Assembly: GCF_000424065.1 (NCBI RefSeq)
Contig: NZ_KE384127.1
Coordinates: 1 to 63,565 of the forward strand
Length of the DNA: 63,565 nt
From: Selenomonas ruminantium subsp. ruminantium ATCC 12561
Lineage (GTDB): Bacteria; Bacillota; Negativicutes; Selenomonadales; Selenomonadaceae
Direction: 5' to 3'
Shown here: one piece after another, positions 15,497 to 35,931 of the stretch
Layout of the letters: the number at the start of each line of letters is the position of its first letter
How positions within the stretch are numbered: the first letter of the stretch is position 1
Program-made: the position numbers and the translations under genes
The notes under the pieces: model-generated
What the model was told of the DNA's origin: nothing
Seen by the model: only the letters and a program-made list of their open reading frames with translations
Database searches by the model: none

Positions 15497-16702
15497 TTGT
15501 GTAAGTTAGGAATCCTCGTGGACGCAATACCGTTTCCACAGGATATAGATACAATCATCATGGGGGTTAACGCTGTGTTTGAATTAGAGGAAAATGGCCT
15601 TGATCAGTTGGCCAAGATCAAAGTAATTGGTGTAGGCGGCGGCGGAAGCAACGCTGTCAACCGCATGATAAATTTTGGACTGCAGGGGGTCGAATTTATT
15701 GCGGTGAATACAGATGCACAGGCGCTTTTGAAGTCCTTGGCTCCAAAGCGCATGCAGATTGGCGAGAAACTCACCCGGGGATTAGGTGCTGGTGCTCGTC
15801 CGGAAATTGGACAGAAAGCGGCTGAAGAAAGCCGTGATGATATTTTGGAAGCCCTGCGCGGGGCTGATATGGTATTTGTTACCGCAGGTATGGGGGGCGG
15901 TACGGGCACTGGTGCGGCACCTGTAGTTGCAGAGTGTGCCCGGGAAATCGGTGCCTTAACGGTAGGTGTTGTCACGAAACCCTTCGGCTTTGAAGGGAAA
16001 AAACGTGGGCGTAACGCAGAATCCGGTATTGCCAACCTGAAGCAGCATGTTGATACGATCATTACCATTCCCAATGACCGCCTGATGCAGGTGGTGGACA
16101 AGAAGACGCCAATCACGCAGGCTTTCCAGCTCGCAGATGATGTTTTGCGCCAAGGCGTTAAGGGCATTTCGGATTTGATTGCCCTGCCTGGATTGGTTAA
16201 CCTGGACTTTGCTGATGTGCAGAGTGTTATGAGTAATGCTGGTTCGGCGTTGATGGGTATTGGTGAGGCTTCCGGCGAAGGGGCTGCTATTGAAGCTGCT
16301 AAGGCGGCAATCGCTTCTCCGCTTCTGGAAACCAGCATTGATGGTGCAAGAGGCATTCTTCTCAATGTTACTGGTGCTGAAGAAAATCTCAGCATGTATG
16401 AAATTCAGGAAGCTTCGGAAGCAATTCATGGTGCTGCCGATAGTCAGGCCAATATCATTTGGGGTGCATCTATTGACAATACGATGGGCGACAAGGTACG
16501 CGTTACCGTTATTGCCACAGGGTTTGATGCACCGGAAACGCAGGCAGCACCCGCAGCGGATCAGCCGATTATGCCCAATACGGGACTCAATCTTGGCGGC
16601 ATGCCGAATCCGGCAGCGCCAGCCGCTCCGGCTGATACACAGCAGACGGTTACCCCGACTGCTGATTTCATCGATATTCCGGTGTGGATGCAAAAAAAAT
16701 AA
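15497..16702 (+). CDS. ftsZ: Cell division GTPase FtsZ
   Basis: Tubulin-like GTPase forming the Z ring. The glycine loop [16 protein letters not shown], the tubulin signature [10 protein letters not shown], the T7 loop NLDFADV and the C-terminal peptide DIPVWMQKK are intact. Three starts are possible: TTG 15497 with a strong AAGGAG six bases upstream (401 residues), ATG 15560 without a clear site, and GTG 15575, which follows GGGGGT and gives [12 protein letters not shown], the usual family length. I list the longest form because its ribosome site is best, but the first 26 codons could instead be a leader. An A-rich and T-rich stretch at 15420-15490 probably holds its promoter. Confidence 0.93.
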
Positions 16703-18478: not shown

Positions 18479-18828
18479 GGCATATATTCGATTAAATTTT
18501 CACACATTTACCAAAAATAAATATAAAAAATTATTTATATTTTTTATTGCACTAGCAGGAAAATACGGATGGACAGCGAATAATGATAAAATAGAGATTA
18601 GTTATTAGTGAAAGGCAGTCTGTTTATCGTTGCGTTCTGTCTCTACCATGATATATGTCATAATAGCATGACAAATGTAATATTTTTATTTTCTGCAGAA
18701 AATACATAGAAAATAGCAGAAAAATTGTATACTAACAGATGAAAATCTGTTAAAATATATATAAAAAGTAAACCGTAGTCGAATAAGGGGAGATTATTGT
18801 TTACTATGATATCCAAGGGGGATTTTTT
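18479..18828 (+). other. AT-rich 350-base region upstream of the glycogen operon
   Basis: No open frame or tRNA is visible. It is unusually AT-rich. A small hairpin AACAGAT-gaaa-ATCTGTT lies at 18734-18751, and AGTAAAC (18767-18773) pairs with GTTTACT (18799-18805) in the likely leader of glgC. TTGTAT at 18725 and TAAAAT at 18751 are promoter-like but poorly spaced. It probably carries the glgC promoter and its regulatory sites. Confidence 0.5.
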
Positions 18829-19983
18829 ATGAGAAAGACAGAATGCTTGGCCATGATTTTGGCTGGTGGTCAGGGCAGCCGCCTCGGCGCGCTAACAAAG
18901 AAAATTGCAAAACCAGCTGTACCGTTTGGCGGAAAGTATCGCATTATCGACTTTCCGCTTAGTAACTGTGCAAATTCCGGCATAGACAAGGTCGGTGTAC
19001 TGACCCAGTATCGCCCGCTGGAACTGCATAACTATCTGGCTTCCGGCAGCGCTTGGGACTTAGACCAGAAAAATGGCGGTATTTTCATTCTGCCGCCGTA
19101 TGCCCGTGAAAAAGGTGCAGATTGGTATCAGGGTACTGCTGATGCAATTTATCAGAACCTTAACTTCATTGACTTAGCCGATCCTGAGTATGTTCTCATT
19201 CTGTCTGGTGACCACATCTACACCATGGATTATTCCTGGATGTTGGAAGCGCATAAGATGAACAAAGCTGAGGCAACCATCGGTGTTATCGAAGTTCCTT
19301 GGGAAGAAGCACCGCGCTTCGGTATCATGAACACGGACAAGACGGGCCGTATCGAAGAATTCGAAGAAAAACCCGCCAACCCCAAGAGCAATTTGGCTTC
19401 CATGGGTATCTATGTATTCAATAAGAATTTCCTCAAAAAATATTTGGAAGAAGATGCTAAGGACGAAACCAGCAGCCATGATTTCGGTAAGAACATCATT
19501 CCGAAGATGCTGAAGGATAAGGCCCGTCTGTATTCCTATGCTTTTGAAGGTTATTGGAAAGATGTGGGCACGATTGAAAGCCTTTGGCAGGCCAATATGG
19601 ACCTTCTGCAGGATCAGCCGCCATTTGATCTCAAAGGCGAAAAGAAAATTTATTCCTCCAATGAGTCCATGCCGCCACACTATATTGGCCCCGATGCCAA
19701 GGTGAAAAATTCCATGATCAGTGAAGGTTCCATGGTTTTGGGTGAAGTAGAAAACTCGGTTATTTTCCCTGGCGTGCGCATTGGCAAAGGGGTTAAGGTA
19801 ACGAATTCCGTTATCATGCCCTCTACGGTCATCCGCGATGGCGCAGTAGTGGATTATGCAATTCTGGCGCAGAATTGTGAAGTAGCTGCTGGTGCCAAGG
19901 TTACGGGACAGCTGGGTGCTATCACGGTGGTAGCTGAAGGCGAAACCGTTGAAGCAGAAGCCAGCGGCAAACAGGCCGGCTGA
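18829..19983 (+). CDS. glgC: Glucose-1-phosphate adenylyltransferase GlgC
   Basis: A 384-residue enzyme making ADP-glucose from glucose-1-phosphate and ATP, the committed step of glycogen synthesis. The nucleotide-binding start [35 protein letters not shown], with the activating Lys region, is typical. [14 protein letters not shown] and EEFEEKP follow, and the C-terminal part is a left-handed beta-helix of hexapeptide repeats ([21 protein letters not shown]). AAGGGGGAT precedes the ATG. It leads the operon glgC-glgD-glgP-glgB-glgA. Confidence 0.95.
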
Positions 19984-33203: not shown

Positions 33204-33560
33204 ATGAGTATCAATACCATTGCTGCCGCCAGCAGTCTGAATTATTGGCAGCAGCAGGAGCATGTCCGTACAGATTACAATCTGCATTCGGCGGCAGGTA
33301 CCTTTGGTCAGATTCTGGCTAAGCTCACAGCTGCGCAGACAGAAACAGGCGCAGATGTGGAACGCGGAGTTGCACCGGTGACACTGACCAAATTGCTTTC
33401 GGATGGTTCGTTGGTTATTCTGAAGGTGGAAGGCAATCAGGTGATTTCCGAAGCCAAGCTGGATGGAACGAACGTATTGGCACAGCAGCTTATGCGGGGA
33501 TACGCTGCGCCGCTTGCCGATGGTACAGCAGCTGATGCGGGCATTAACACAACTGTTTGA
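33204..33560 (+). CDS. Hypothetical 118-residue protein
   Basis: I do not recognise this protein. It begins MSINTIAAASSLNYWQQQEH and has no signal peptide or membrane segment. The middle (VTLTKLLSDGSLVILKVEG) looks like a small beta fold, and the C-terminus is alanine-rich. AAAGGAGG precedes the ATG. The gene sits alone between the guaA terminator and its own terminator near 33657-33696. Codon use resembles its neighbours, so it is likely a real native gene. Confidence 0.7.
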   Translation: MSINTIAAASSLNYWQQQEHVRTDYNLHSAAGTFGQILAKLTAAQTETGADVERGVAPVTLTKLLSDGSLVILKVEGNQVISEAKLDGTNVLAQQLMRGYAAPLADGTAADAGINTTV

Positions 33561-33789: not shown

Positions 33790-34452
33790 ATGGATAGTCT
33801 GACCTGGGGAATTTTTGATATTATGGGCACCATTGCGTTTGCGATATCGGGAGCGATGGTGGCTATTCAGCGCAAGATGGATATTTTTGGCACGATTGTG
33901 CTGGCGGTGCTTACGGCCGTGGGCGGCGGTATGGTGCGTGATGTGCTTGTGGGGATTACCCCGCCGATGGCGTTGTGCAATATTACGGACTTTATGCTGT
34001 CGATGATCATTGCGGTTGTGGTGTCCCTGGTCTATAGTTTTTGGCCGTATTCCCCGCCGCATAAATATTTTATGCTCTGGCTTTATAATATGTTTGATAC
34101 GGTAGGCTTGGCTTCCTTTACGATTACGGGAATGCTGACCGGCCTGGCGCGGGAGGCGGGCAATCCCTATGTGCTGCCGGTGCTGTTGGGGGTAATCACC
34201 GCAGTAGGCGGCGGTGTTTTGCGGGATTTGATGGCGCATCGCATGCCGGGGGTGTTGTATAAGGATATTTATGCGACAGCGGCACTCATTGGTGCGGTGA
34301 TTTCCTGTGCACTGCAGAATTATGTGGATACGGTGACTATGGCCTGGATTTGTTTTGTGCTGGTGATTGGCATCCGCTTTGGAGCCTTGTACTATGGCTG
34401 GCATCTCTTTCATCCGCGGGCTAATTGGCGGCGGCACAAACGGACGGGGTAA
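33790..34452 (+). CDS. TRIC-type cation channel family protein (UPF0126, YadS/YicG-like)
   Basis: A 220-residue membrane protein with two homologous halves of three helices plus a seventh. Half one contains GTIAFAISGAMVAI and AVGGGMVRDVLVG; half two repeats this as GLASFTITGML and AVGGGVLRDLMA. The paired GGG-x2-RD motifs define the bacterial trimeric intracellular cation channel (UPF0126) family, thought to conduct monovalent cations; some members are linked to glycine use. AAAGGA lies upstream. Monocistronic. Confidence 0.88.
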   Translation: MDSLTWGIFDIMGTIAFAISGAMVAIQRKMDIFGTIVLAVLTAVGGGMVRDVLVGITPPMALCNITDFMLSMIIAVVVSLVYSFWPYSPPHKYFMLWLYNMFDTVGLASFTITGMLTGLAREAGNPYVLPVLLGVITAVGGGVLRDLMAHRMPGVLYKDIYATAALIGAVISCALQNYVDTVTMAWICFVLVIGIRFGALYYGWHLFHPRANWRRHKRTG

Positions 34453-34461
34453 ATTTTATTA

Positions 34462-34490
34462 TTGCTATTTCAGATGGACAAGAGTATAAT
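34462..34490 (+). promoter_or_regulatory. Promoter of the 19-codon peptide transcript
   Basis: TTGCTA (34462-34467) and TATAAT (34485-34490) at exact 17-base spacing. Transcription would begin near 34497, giving a 64-base leader. Confidence 0.82.
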
Positions 34491-34560
34491 AAATGCAACG
34501 GTTTACACAGGGTGCTAGATGCGAAAAACTTTGCTGGATGCACGGTAAGGAGTGTGTAAC

Positions 34561-34620
34561 GTGAAGCTTGACAGCTTGAAGTTGGTTTTAGCTTGTTTGG
34601 CAGTAGTTCTTTTTAGCTGA
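34561..34620 (+). CDS. Candidate 19-residue hydrophobic peptide (type I toxin-like or micro-lipoprotein)
   Basis: A GTG-initiated frame of 19 codons encodes MKLDSLKLVLACLAVVLFS. AAGGAG ends about nine bases before the start. The frame has its own 17-spaced promoter 64 bases upstream of the GTG and a strong terminator 26 bases after the stop, so it is the only coding content of a roughly 180-base transcript. A short charged head and one hydrophobic stretch resemble small membrane toxins such as Ibs or Hok-type peptides. VLAC also fits a lipobox, so a tiny lipoprotein is the alternative. The leader folds into a hairpin around GTGC/GCAC, and an AAGCT/AGCTT stem covers the start region. ftsZ2 follows 168 bases downstream. 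Confidence 0.6.
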   Translation: MKLDSLKLVLACLAVVLFS

Positions 34621-34646
34621 TACTGTGGACGGGCAGCTGAGAAGGG

Positions 34647-34679
34647 GAGCAGGGGACACGCAGGTACCCTGCTCTTTTC
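34647..34679 (+). terminator. Terminator of the 19-codon peptide transcript
   Basis: GAGCAGGG pairs with CCCTGCTC over a 12-base loop and runs into TTTTC. Confidence 0.88.
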
Positions 34680-34788
34680 ATTTGCAGATAATGTCCGTGT
34701 ATGGTAAAATTTTCACTAGTGGGCAGGAATCTGCTCGGGCAATGACGAATAATTGTTAAGATATGAGCCTTAGAGAGGGGAATACTCC

Positions 34789-35931
34789 ATGACCACAGAG
34801 GATATATTGATTAAACCGAAAATCAAAATAAAGGTATTTGGTGTTGGCGGCGGCGGCAACAGCGTTCTCATGCGCATGGGCCAGCATAATGAACTGGATA
34901 TTGAATTGTATGCGGTAAATACGGATGCGAAGCAGTTGCGGCAGGTTGAGCAGTTTGGGGTCAACTGCATTCAGATTGGTGAATCACTGACGCGTGGCCG
35001 GGGAACTGGTGGCAATATTCAGCTCGGTGAGCAGGCTGCAAAAAATGATGCAGCCAAATTACAGGCTGCCTTAAACGGCGCGGATATGGTTTTCATTACG
35101 GCTGGCATGGGGGGCGGTACCGGTACAGGTGCTGCGCCGCTTATCGCTCGTCTGGCCAAGGAAATGGGAATCCTTTCTGTGGGTGTGGTAACCGTACCAT
35201 TTTCCTTTGAAGGCAATCGCAAGAAAAAGGTGGCACAGGATGGCATTACCAAGATGCAGTCTCAAATGGATGCCTTGATTGCTGTGGAGAATGACAATCT
35301 GTCCAAGCTGCCGGAAAATCGAAAAATGTCTTTGGTACAGGCTTTTGAATGTGCGGACAATATCCTCAAGCAGGCCATTAACTGCGTAGCAGAACTGATT
35401 CTTACTACCGGGGTCATCAATGTGGACTTTGCCGATGTCACCACCATTTTCCGCCAGAGTGAGAGCAGTGATGCGCTCTTAGGCATTGGTGTCAGTCAGC
35501 GCAGTGCTGTTGATGCGGTGAAGATTGCAGCAGAAAGCCCGCTTATTGACAAGGAACTGTCCGGAGCAAGGGGCATTATTCTTAACCTTACCGGGGATTG
35601 CAATTTGAGCCTGTTTGATGTTGATGAAGCTTCCCGCTATATTGTGAAACATACGGACCCTGAGGTGAATATCATCCTGGGTACGGTGGAAAACAATGAG
35701 ATGGACGGCGCTGTACAGGCGACCATCATTGCTACGGATTTTGCCGATAGTGTAGTGATGAAAGCGCCCACGGTAAAGGTACCGGAAAGCACCCTTAAGC
35801 AGGAGACTTTACAGGAGAAGAGCTTCCAAATGGAGGTGCCTTCTTTTATGAATAAGCAAACGGCGGGGGGAACTTCAAGACCATTCGCTATTCCCGCCTT
35901 TAAATTGACAGATGGGCTGGATAAGAAGTAA
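34789..35931 (+). CDS. Second FtsZ (divergent paralogue, FtsZ2)
   Basis: A 380-residue FtsZ homologue about 18 kb from the dcw-encoded one. The GTP-binding parts are intact: GVGGGGNS (18-25), [10 protein letters not shown] (108-117) and the catalytic T7 loop NVDFAD (211-216), so it should be able to hydrolyse GTP and polymerise. Compared with FtsZ1 it has NSVLMRM for SNAVNRM and no long disordered linker. Its end carries two weak C-terminal-peptide-like motifs (MEVPSFMNK at 348-356 and FAIPAFKL at 366-373) instead of the single [17 protein letters not shown] precedes the ATG. tcdA follows closely and may be cotranscribed. Confidence 0.92.

Follow-up and report, generated by a model that had tools for sequence, protein, structure and literature searches.

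A conserved 19-codon gene next to a second ftsZ in Selenomonas ruminantium and its relatives

Can a short stretch of DNA in front of a second ftsZ gene of Selenomonas ruminantium subsp. ruminantium ATCC 12561 be a gene for a protein of only 19 residues and, if it is, what might that protein do in this place? The locus lies on contig NZ_KE384127.1, positions 1 to 63,565 of the forward strand; this whole stretch of 63,565 nucleotides is referred to here as the window. Annotation usually overlooks such short genes. A sequence-only reading of the window had proposed that a promoter with a 17-nt spacer, a leader, an AAGGAG site, a GTG start, 19 sense codons and a terminator form a complete coding unit beside ftsZ2 at 34462–34679. 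By direct reading, 34462–34678 contains every part of a micro-gene, from a sigma-A-type promoter through a Shine-Dalgarno site, GTG, 19 codons and TGA to a hairpin terminator, and its conservation, described below, confirmed this layout. The proposed start of the unit was correct; its end was not, since on re-reading the T-run stops at 34678. The features of the region are the following.

33790–34452, + strand: Gly_transporter (TRIC/UPF0126) gene, the upstream neighbour, assigned by Pfam; not conserved at this place
34462–34467, + strand: −35 hexamer TTGCTA (direct reading and promoter scan)
34485–34490, + strand: −10 hexamer TATAAT (direct reading and promoter scan)
34547–34552, + strand: Shine-Dalgarno AAGGAG, 8 nt 5′ of the GTG
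34561–34620, + strand: micro-ORF MKLDSLKLVLACLAVVLFS, GTG start, 19 sense codons, TGA; present in 52 genomes, under purifying selection
34647–34678, + strand: intrinsic terminator, 8-bp GC-rich stem and T-run (reading, compensatory changes, conservation)
34681–34710, + strand: second candidate promoter of ftsZ2, sigma-A-like (TTTGCA, 18 nt, TAAAAT), from the scan; conserved among the closest relatives of the window
34723–34752, + strand: sigma-H-like promoter of ftsZ2, GCAGGAATC, 12 nt, GACGAATAA (strict pattern)
34789–35931, + strand: ftsZ2, second FtsZ with C-terminal tail FAIPAFKL (PF00091/PF12327; TIGR00065, 310 bits)

The promoter scan recovered the TTGCTA-17-TATAAT promoter with 10 of 12 matches, and the leader measures about 64 nt. 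The arms of the terminator stem are GAGCAGGG (34647–34654) and CCCTGCTC (34667–34674), followed by TTTT to 34678. The short charged head (K2, D4, K7) and the hydrophobic stretch containing VLAC that had been described earlier are both present in the peptide. Within this genome FtsZ_C matches most strongly at 16241–16528 of the same window; the gene at 34789 is therefore a second copy. A third FtsZ_C match was observed in a 248-residue frame (L200, contig 50 of this genome, 3677–3940), which seems to have no glycine-rich GTP-binding loop and is perhaps a degenerate FtsZ-like protein.

A DNA search of 41 genomes gave matches in all 22 genomes of the same genus (its own included) and in one further genome of the family. 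A profile built from ten peptides (A3) and run against 189 genomes of the family brought further genera, and a second one, built from 29 peptides (A4), was run against 380 genomes of the class. With A4, 52 of the 380 genomes had a match at E ≤ 7.5e-7, one such match per genome; all of them belong to the window's own family, where they represent 13 of its 30 genera. The next matches, at E 0.005 and worse, mostly fell inside long frames or covered part of the profile, and were taken as chance. A match was lacking in 137 of the 189 family genomes, although a profile of 19 positions can miss divergent members: L059 and L074 were missed by A3 and then found by eye. The locus tables comprise 51 loci, which are related and not independent; one genome counted among the 52 (G088) stands outside them.

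The 51 loci contain 43 distinct ORF cores and 29 distinct peptides. In frame 0 we counted 100 extra codons, 36 extra residues and no stops; the corresponding figures for the other two frames were 104, 63 and 66, and 102, 89 and 43. The mean minor-base frequency at codon positions 1, 2 and 3 was 0.20, 0.047 and 0.373, that is, position 2 is nearly fixed and position 3 is free. The codon model used the 43 distinct cores, from which five additional N-terminal codons (L044 and L051) and the ends of longer peptides had been trimmed. It yielded an omega of 0.114 (kappa 1) and a lnL of −1027.6; with the tree unchanged and omega set to 1, the lnL was −1164.5. The exact omega is rough, because there are 18 codons and the parameters outnumber the sites, but the difference in lnL is large all the same. 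D4, K7 and L10 are invariant across the 29 aligned peptides. Start codons were GTG (40 loci), TTG (8) and ATG (3), and stop codons TGA (47) and TAG (4). The synonymous bias that had been suggested as a check thus speaks strongly for the coding frame, and no in-frame stop, of the kind that might have pointed to a non-coding RNA, occurs among the 51 loci. Judging from these substitution patterns, the micro-ORF frame is under strong purifying selection, and its product is almost certainly a real translated microprotein.

The signals around the frame are also conserved. The best sense promoter score averaged 10.25 in the 51 loci versus 7.73 in shuffled sequences, reaching at least 10 in 44 loci and at least 9 in 50, with a poor best promoter in L043; a spacer of 17 nt was the best choice in 48 loci. 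An SD-like site was found in 50 of the 51 loci, and a GTG or TTG start in 48. Hairpins of terminator type were reported at every locus but L044 (50 of 51), those of L051 and L074 being weak and that of L049 middling; in an alignment of 23 loci, pairs of the terminator stem showed compensatory changes. The layout is not the same everywhere, since no real terminator was seen in L044 and L051, and the micro-gene and ftsZ2 may form an operon in these two genomes of g21. The leader has no conserved length: 33–108 nt lie between the −10 hexamer and the start. Three short motifs are conserved: one resembling GCTGGATGC in the leader (34533–34541 in the window; 26 of 51 loci), a GTGGA-like motif 3′ of the stop (34625–34629; 29 of 51), and AGTG or GATG directly after the ribosome site (49 of 51). 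Other genera have the peptide but lack the leader and post-stop motifs. For the GGA motifs of the leader and 3′ region, a CsrA-like reading was dropped because they are retained in some genera only, and an upstream mini-ORF overlapping the GTG, noticed by eye at some loci, was not conserved.

The position of the micro-gene relative to ftsZ2 is highly stable. At 48 loci ftsZ2 lies on the same strand, 55–352 nt 3′ of the micro-ORF stop, and coordinates place it about 280 nt downstream in G087 and G088, which brings the linked genomes to 50 of 52. G193 has a contig end at this point, and an ftsZ2 match opens another of its contigs. In G008 an insertion of 8 kb, with genes that by eye resemble a LacI-type regulator, a transporter and sugar enzymes, separates the micro-gene from ftsZ2, and the micro-gene, its promoter and its terminator are intact. 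On the other side, the nearest upstream ORF of at least 150 codons belongs to at least ten unrelated Pfam families: Gly_transporter in the window and, elsewhere, GH3, M78 peptidase, EamA, His_Phos_2, LysR, class II tRNA synthetase, branched-chain amino acid transporter, argininosuccinate lyase and dihydroxy-acid dehydratase. The Pfam test covered the window and ten other loci (11), with no match for L028. Clustering by similarity produced 18 groups among 47 loci, four loci being without a candidate; only the Pfam-tested families were counted, because antisense frames inflated the clustering. The EamA similarity group holds 19 of the 47 loci, and the EamA gene may be the old upstream neighbour. 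Overall, many rearrangements have taken place upstream of the unit, and on the ftsZ2 side there was one among the 51 genomes that could be assessed. Further upstream, a 118-residue ORF with no Pfam match (33204–33560) lies beside guaA, in the closest relatives too.

The proposed co-occurrence with ftsZ2 held in one direction only: the peptide adjoins ftsZ2 in 50 of 52 genomes, but FtsZ2 is widespread in genomes of the family where the peptide has no match. At E ≤ 1e-10, an FtsZ match was obtained in 186 of the 189 family genomes. In 177 of these the best match was 3.1e-91 or better and was taken as FtsZ2; the other nine had weaker matches only (2.3e-67 to 5.2e-79), which may be the first FtsZ. 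Most of the 137 peptide-less genomes seem to keep FtsZ2, which indicates that this protein does not need the peptide everywhere. The regions upstream of ftsZ2 were fetched from 30 genomes with no convincing A3 match; two contained divergent peptides and none was seen by eye in the remainder (for L070, 260 nt were re-read). An FtsZ2 tree was then built with 78 rows, 48 with and 30 without the peptide, leaving out L004 (stop inside, a fragment; by length), L005, L024, L016 (split frame) and L037. Peptide presence required nine changes on this tree, eight of them forced by starred branches, versus 24 for shuffled labels. Peptide bearers occur on both sides of the tree midpoint, with several rows long-branched and the root not established. 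Given the distribution on the tree and the same place kept throughout, ancestral presence in the family followed by repeated loss is the simplest reading, and it is the one that these comparisons suggest. Two loci look, by eye, like snapshots of loss: in L056 (G022) the peptide ORF is gone and the terminator directly follows the promoter, and in L058 (G159) the promoter is kept and a stub of six codons remains.

The sigma-H consensus has a spacing of 11–12 nt. Within 130 nt 5′ of ftsZ2, the strict sigma-H-like pattern is present in 31 of 48 peptide-bearing loci (related, and not independent) versus 0.05 expected from shuffles, and absent in 17; it begins 64–81 nt before the ftsZ2 start, downstream of the micro-gene terminator. 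A sigma-H-like score of at least 21 of 23 was also obtained in 12 of 28 peptide-less ftsZ2 upstream regions. Single matches prove little, because the whole window has four matches to the strict pattern versus 1.4 in shuffles. Another sigma-H-like match lies at 18555–18584, about 245 nt before an ORF (18829–19983) that by eye was named glgC-like. SigH is encoded in the genome (378 bits, cut-off 295), and no Spo0A was found in it above the cut-off (best 82 bits, cut-off 200). Outside the closest relatives, the stretch between the stop and ftsZ2 showed no sigma-A promoter clearly above shuffles at most loci. As the promoter types differ, the micro-gene and ftsZ2 are probably not co-regulated. The consensus, RNAGGAWWW/RNNGAATWW, is given in a passage of PMC8510167; it was not found in PMC3364868.

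With respect to FtsZ2 itself, the FAIPAF motif of its C terminus was compared by eye with the presence of the peptide and discarded as a correlate: some bearers lack it, and genomes without the peptide can have it. In the ftsZ2 starts that were read, nothing was noticed that would suggest a fusion with the peptide. In two peptide-less loci of genus g29 (L061 and L063), FtsZ2 seems by eye to be N-terminally longer, with a repeated NDAAIKEAL-like motif.

As a conserved short frame with its own start signals, the micro-gene fits the general kind of small membrane protein genes. The Kyte-Doolittle mean of residues 8–18 was 3.1–3.4 in five of six peptides tried (3.3 for the window's peptide), and only 1.9 in the sixth, because an N-terminal extension shifts its numbering. 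From this hydropathy, the peptide is very probably located in the membrane, and together with the charged head it points to a single inner-membrane helix with the head in the cytoplasm. We tentatively favor the idea that the unit is a stand-alone gene for a 19-residue single-pass inner-membrane microprotein that acts on or near FtsZ2, to which we give slightly less than an even chance. The functional tie between the peptide and FtsZ2 or division may well exist, and we place it just below the midpoint, since stable adjacency amid upstream reshuffling is its one line of evidence. Adjacency is not interaction, and a small unit at the edge of the stable ftsZ2-thiF-gpsA cluster could be carried along.

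The chief rival to this idea is that the protein, small, membrane-located and constitutively made, has a general role in the envelope or with a transporter and nothing to do with FtsZ2, beside whose gene it would stay only because the place is stable. The coding and hydropathy evidence fits this too, FtsZ2-level matches persist in most peptide-less genomes, and the micro-gene of G008 is intact even though it was separated from ftsZ2; against it, the upstream side was often rearranged (ten unrelated neighbours), the ftsZ2 side once in 51. We regard this explanation as possible, with the balance leaning against it. It is improbable that ftsZ2 is controlled by transcription attenuation with the peptide as the leader. 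The order of short ORF, terminator (50 of 51 loci) and ftsZ2, nearly always on one strand, would suit such a device, as would the scarcity of clear sigma-A promoters between the stop and ftsZ2 beyond the closest relatives and the 17 of 48 loci lacking the strict sigma-H-like pattern. Nevertheless, in 31 of 48 loci a sigma-H-like promoter lies past the terminator, high scores for it recur in 12 of the 28 peptide-less regions, no antiterminator was found in a crude duplex test (mean z 0.08, n = 49), leader length varies widely, and in G008 the ORF and terminator are intact 8 kb from ftsZ2.

Other readings concern the nature of the product. The sequence-only reading had likened the peptide to type I toxins such as Ibs, and it matches in size and hydrophobicity IbsC, which according to part of PMC8309996 has 19 residues and is under repression by SibC. 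This analogy was not supported by the comparison. An antisense RNA to the leader, suggested earlier as a check, received no support from the promoter scan, in which no antisense score reached 10 at any of the 51 loci (mean 7.35 versus 7.70 shuffled; consensus scan only); each genome with the gene has a single copy, in one location, and these genomes cluster on the FtsZ2 tree; the ribosome site is plain; and translation looks unrestrained, because the SD is in the open and the leader is short. Moreover, the head is conserved residue by residue, unlike the N terminus of IbsC, which that part of the paper describes as largely dispensable for toxicity (PMC8309996). We therefore consider a toxin of a type I toxin-antitoxin pair quite unlikely. 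The chance that the unit is a non-coding or dual-function small RNA appears slight: the motifs outside the ORF (GCTGGATGC-like and GTGGA-like) are partly kept, and two predicted leader pairs each have one sequence changed on both sides, but the frame is strongly conserved, those motifs are missing in other peptide-keeping genera, and the unit has no Rfam match at the gathering threshold, where the window returned three tRNAs only. No RNA structure is claimed inside the ORF, since none of the pairs predicted there changes on both sides in the 23-locus alignment. Least credible of all is a micro-lipoprotein with VLAC as its lipobox, as had been put forward earlier. VLAC does contain a cysteine, kept in 25 of 29 distinct peptides, but glycine or leucine replaces it in the other four, and the hydrophobic stretch runs on past it with seven residues left and no mature part. 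Among the earlier interpretations, the FtsZ2-related alternative survives.

If the microprotein does act on or near FtsZ2, the conserved sequences would fit the following scheme. The sigma-A promoter would transcribe the micro-gene constitutively into a short mRNA ending at its own terminator, and the good ribosome site and GTG would yield a peptide whose charged head (K2, D4, K7) stays in the cytoplasm and whose hydrophobic helix extends to the C terminus. Already in the membrane, this peptide could serve as a docking or holding partner for FtsZ2; sigma-H would then make FtsZ2 from its own promoter, and the peptide would condition FtsZ2 assembly at the membrane. The stronger form of this idea, a dedicated 19-residue membrane micro-regulator of a sigma-H-driven second FtsZ that acts as a division switch in bacteria without Spo0A, seems rather unlikely; if true, it would rank among the smallest dedicated division proteins. 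The strong comparative support for a 19-codon gene makes this locus a clean test case for the minimum size of a stand-alone protein gene. If the peptide is tied to FtsZ2, it would also offer a route into why the family has a second FtsZ, apparently under sigma-H, without a recognisable Spo0A.

Among the matches listed for open-access literature on FtsZ, cell division, SigH and small (membrane) proteins of Selenomonas and Negativicutes, the portions consulted do not report the peptide. FtsZ has no occurrence in the Quinella paper PMC9585023, nor Selenomonas in PMC3533761. A smORF catalogue predicts, according to a portion of its text, ORFs down to 30 bases (PMC11364881), so the peptide may sit there unnamed.

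In relation to known systems, the peptide probably represents a new family of small membrane proteins. It resembles YohP (27 residues) and MgrB (47 residues) in being the product of a small gene with a single, here predicted, hydrophobic helix; it is shorter, and is not known to be related to either protein in sequence. With IbsC of the E. coli Ibs/Sib system it shares the length of 19 residues, the hydrophobicity and the single membrane helix, here predicted (PMC8309996, in part); the difference is that Sib RNA represses Ibs, whereas here no antisense promoter was found and there is one copy with strict conservation and a fixed ftsZ2 neighbour. MciZ of B. subtilis, a 40-residue FtsZ inhibitor under sigma-E, is another very small protein with a connection to FtsZ (PMC7430163, in part). 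MciZ is, by that description, twice as long and caps FtsZ filaments, whereas the putative link of our peptide to FtsZ comes from adjacency. Finally, ftsAZ of B. subtilis has a sigma-H site, according to a passage of PMC12421865, as ftsZ2 seems to have here; in S. ruminantium, by contrast, the gene concerned is a second ftsZ with a sigma-A microprotein gene in front of it, and the genome encodes SigH and has no Spo0A match above the cut-off.
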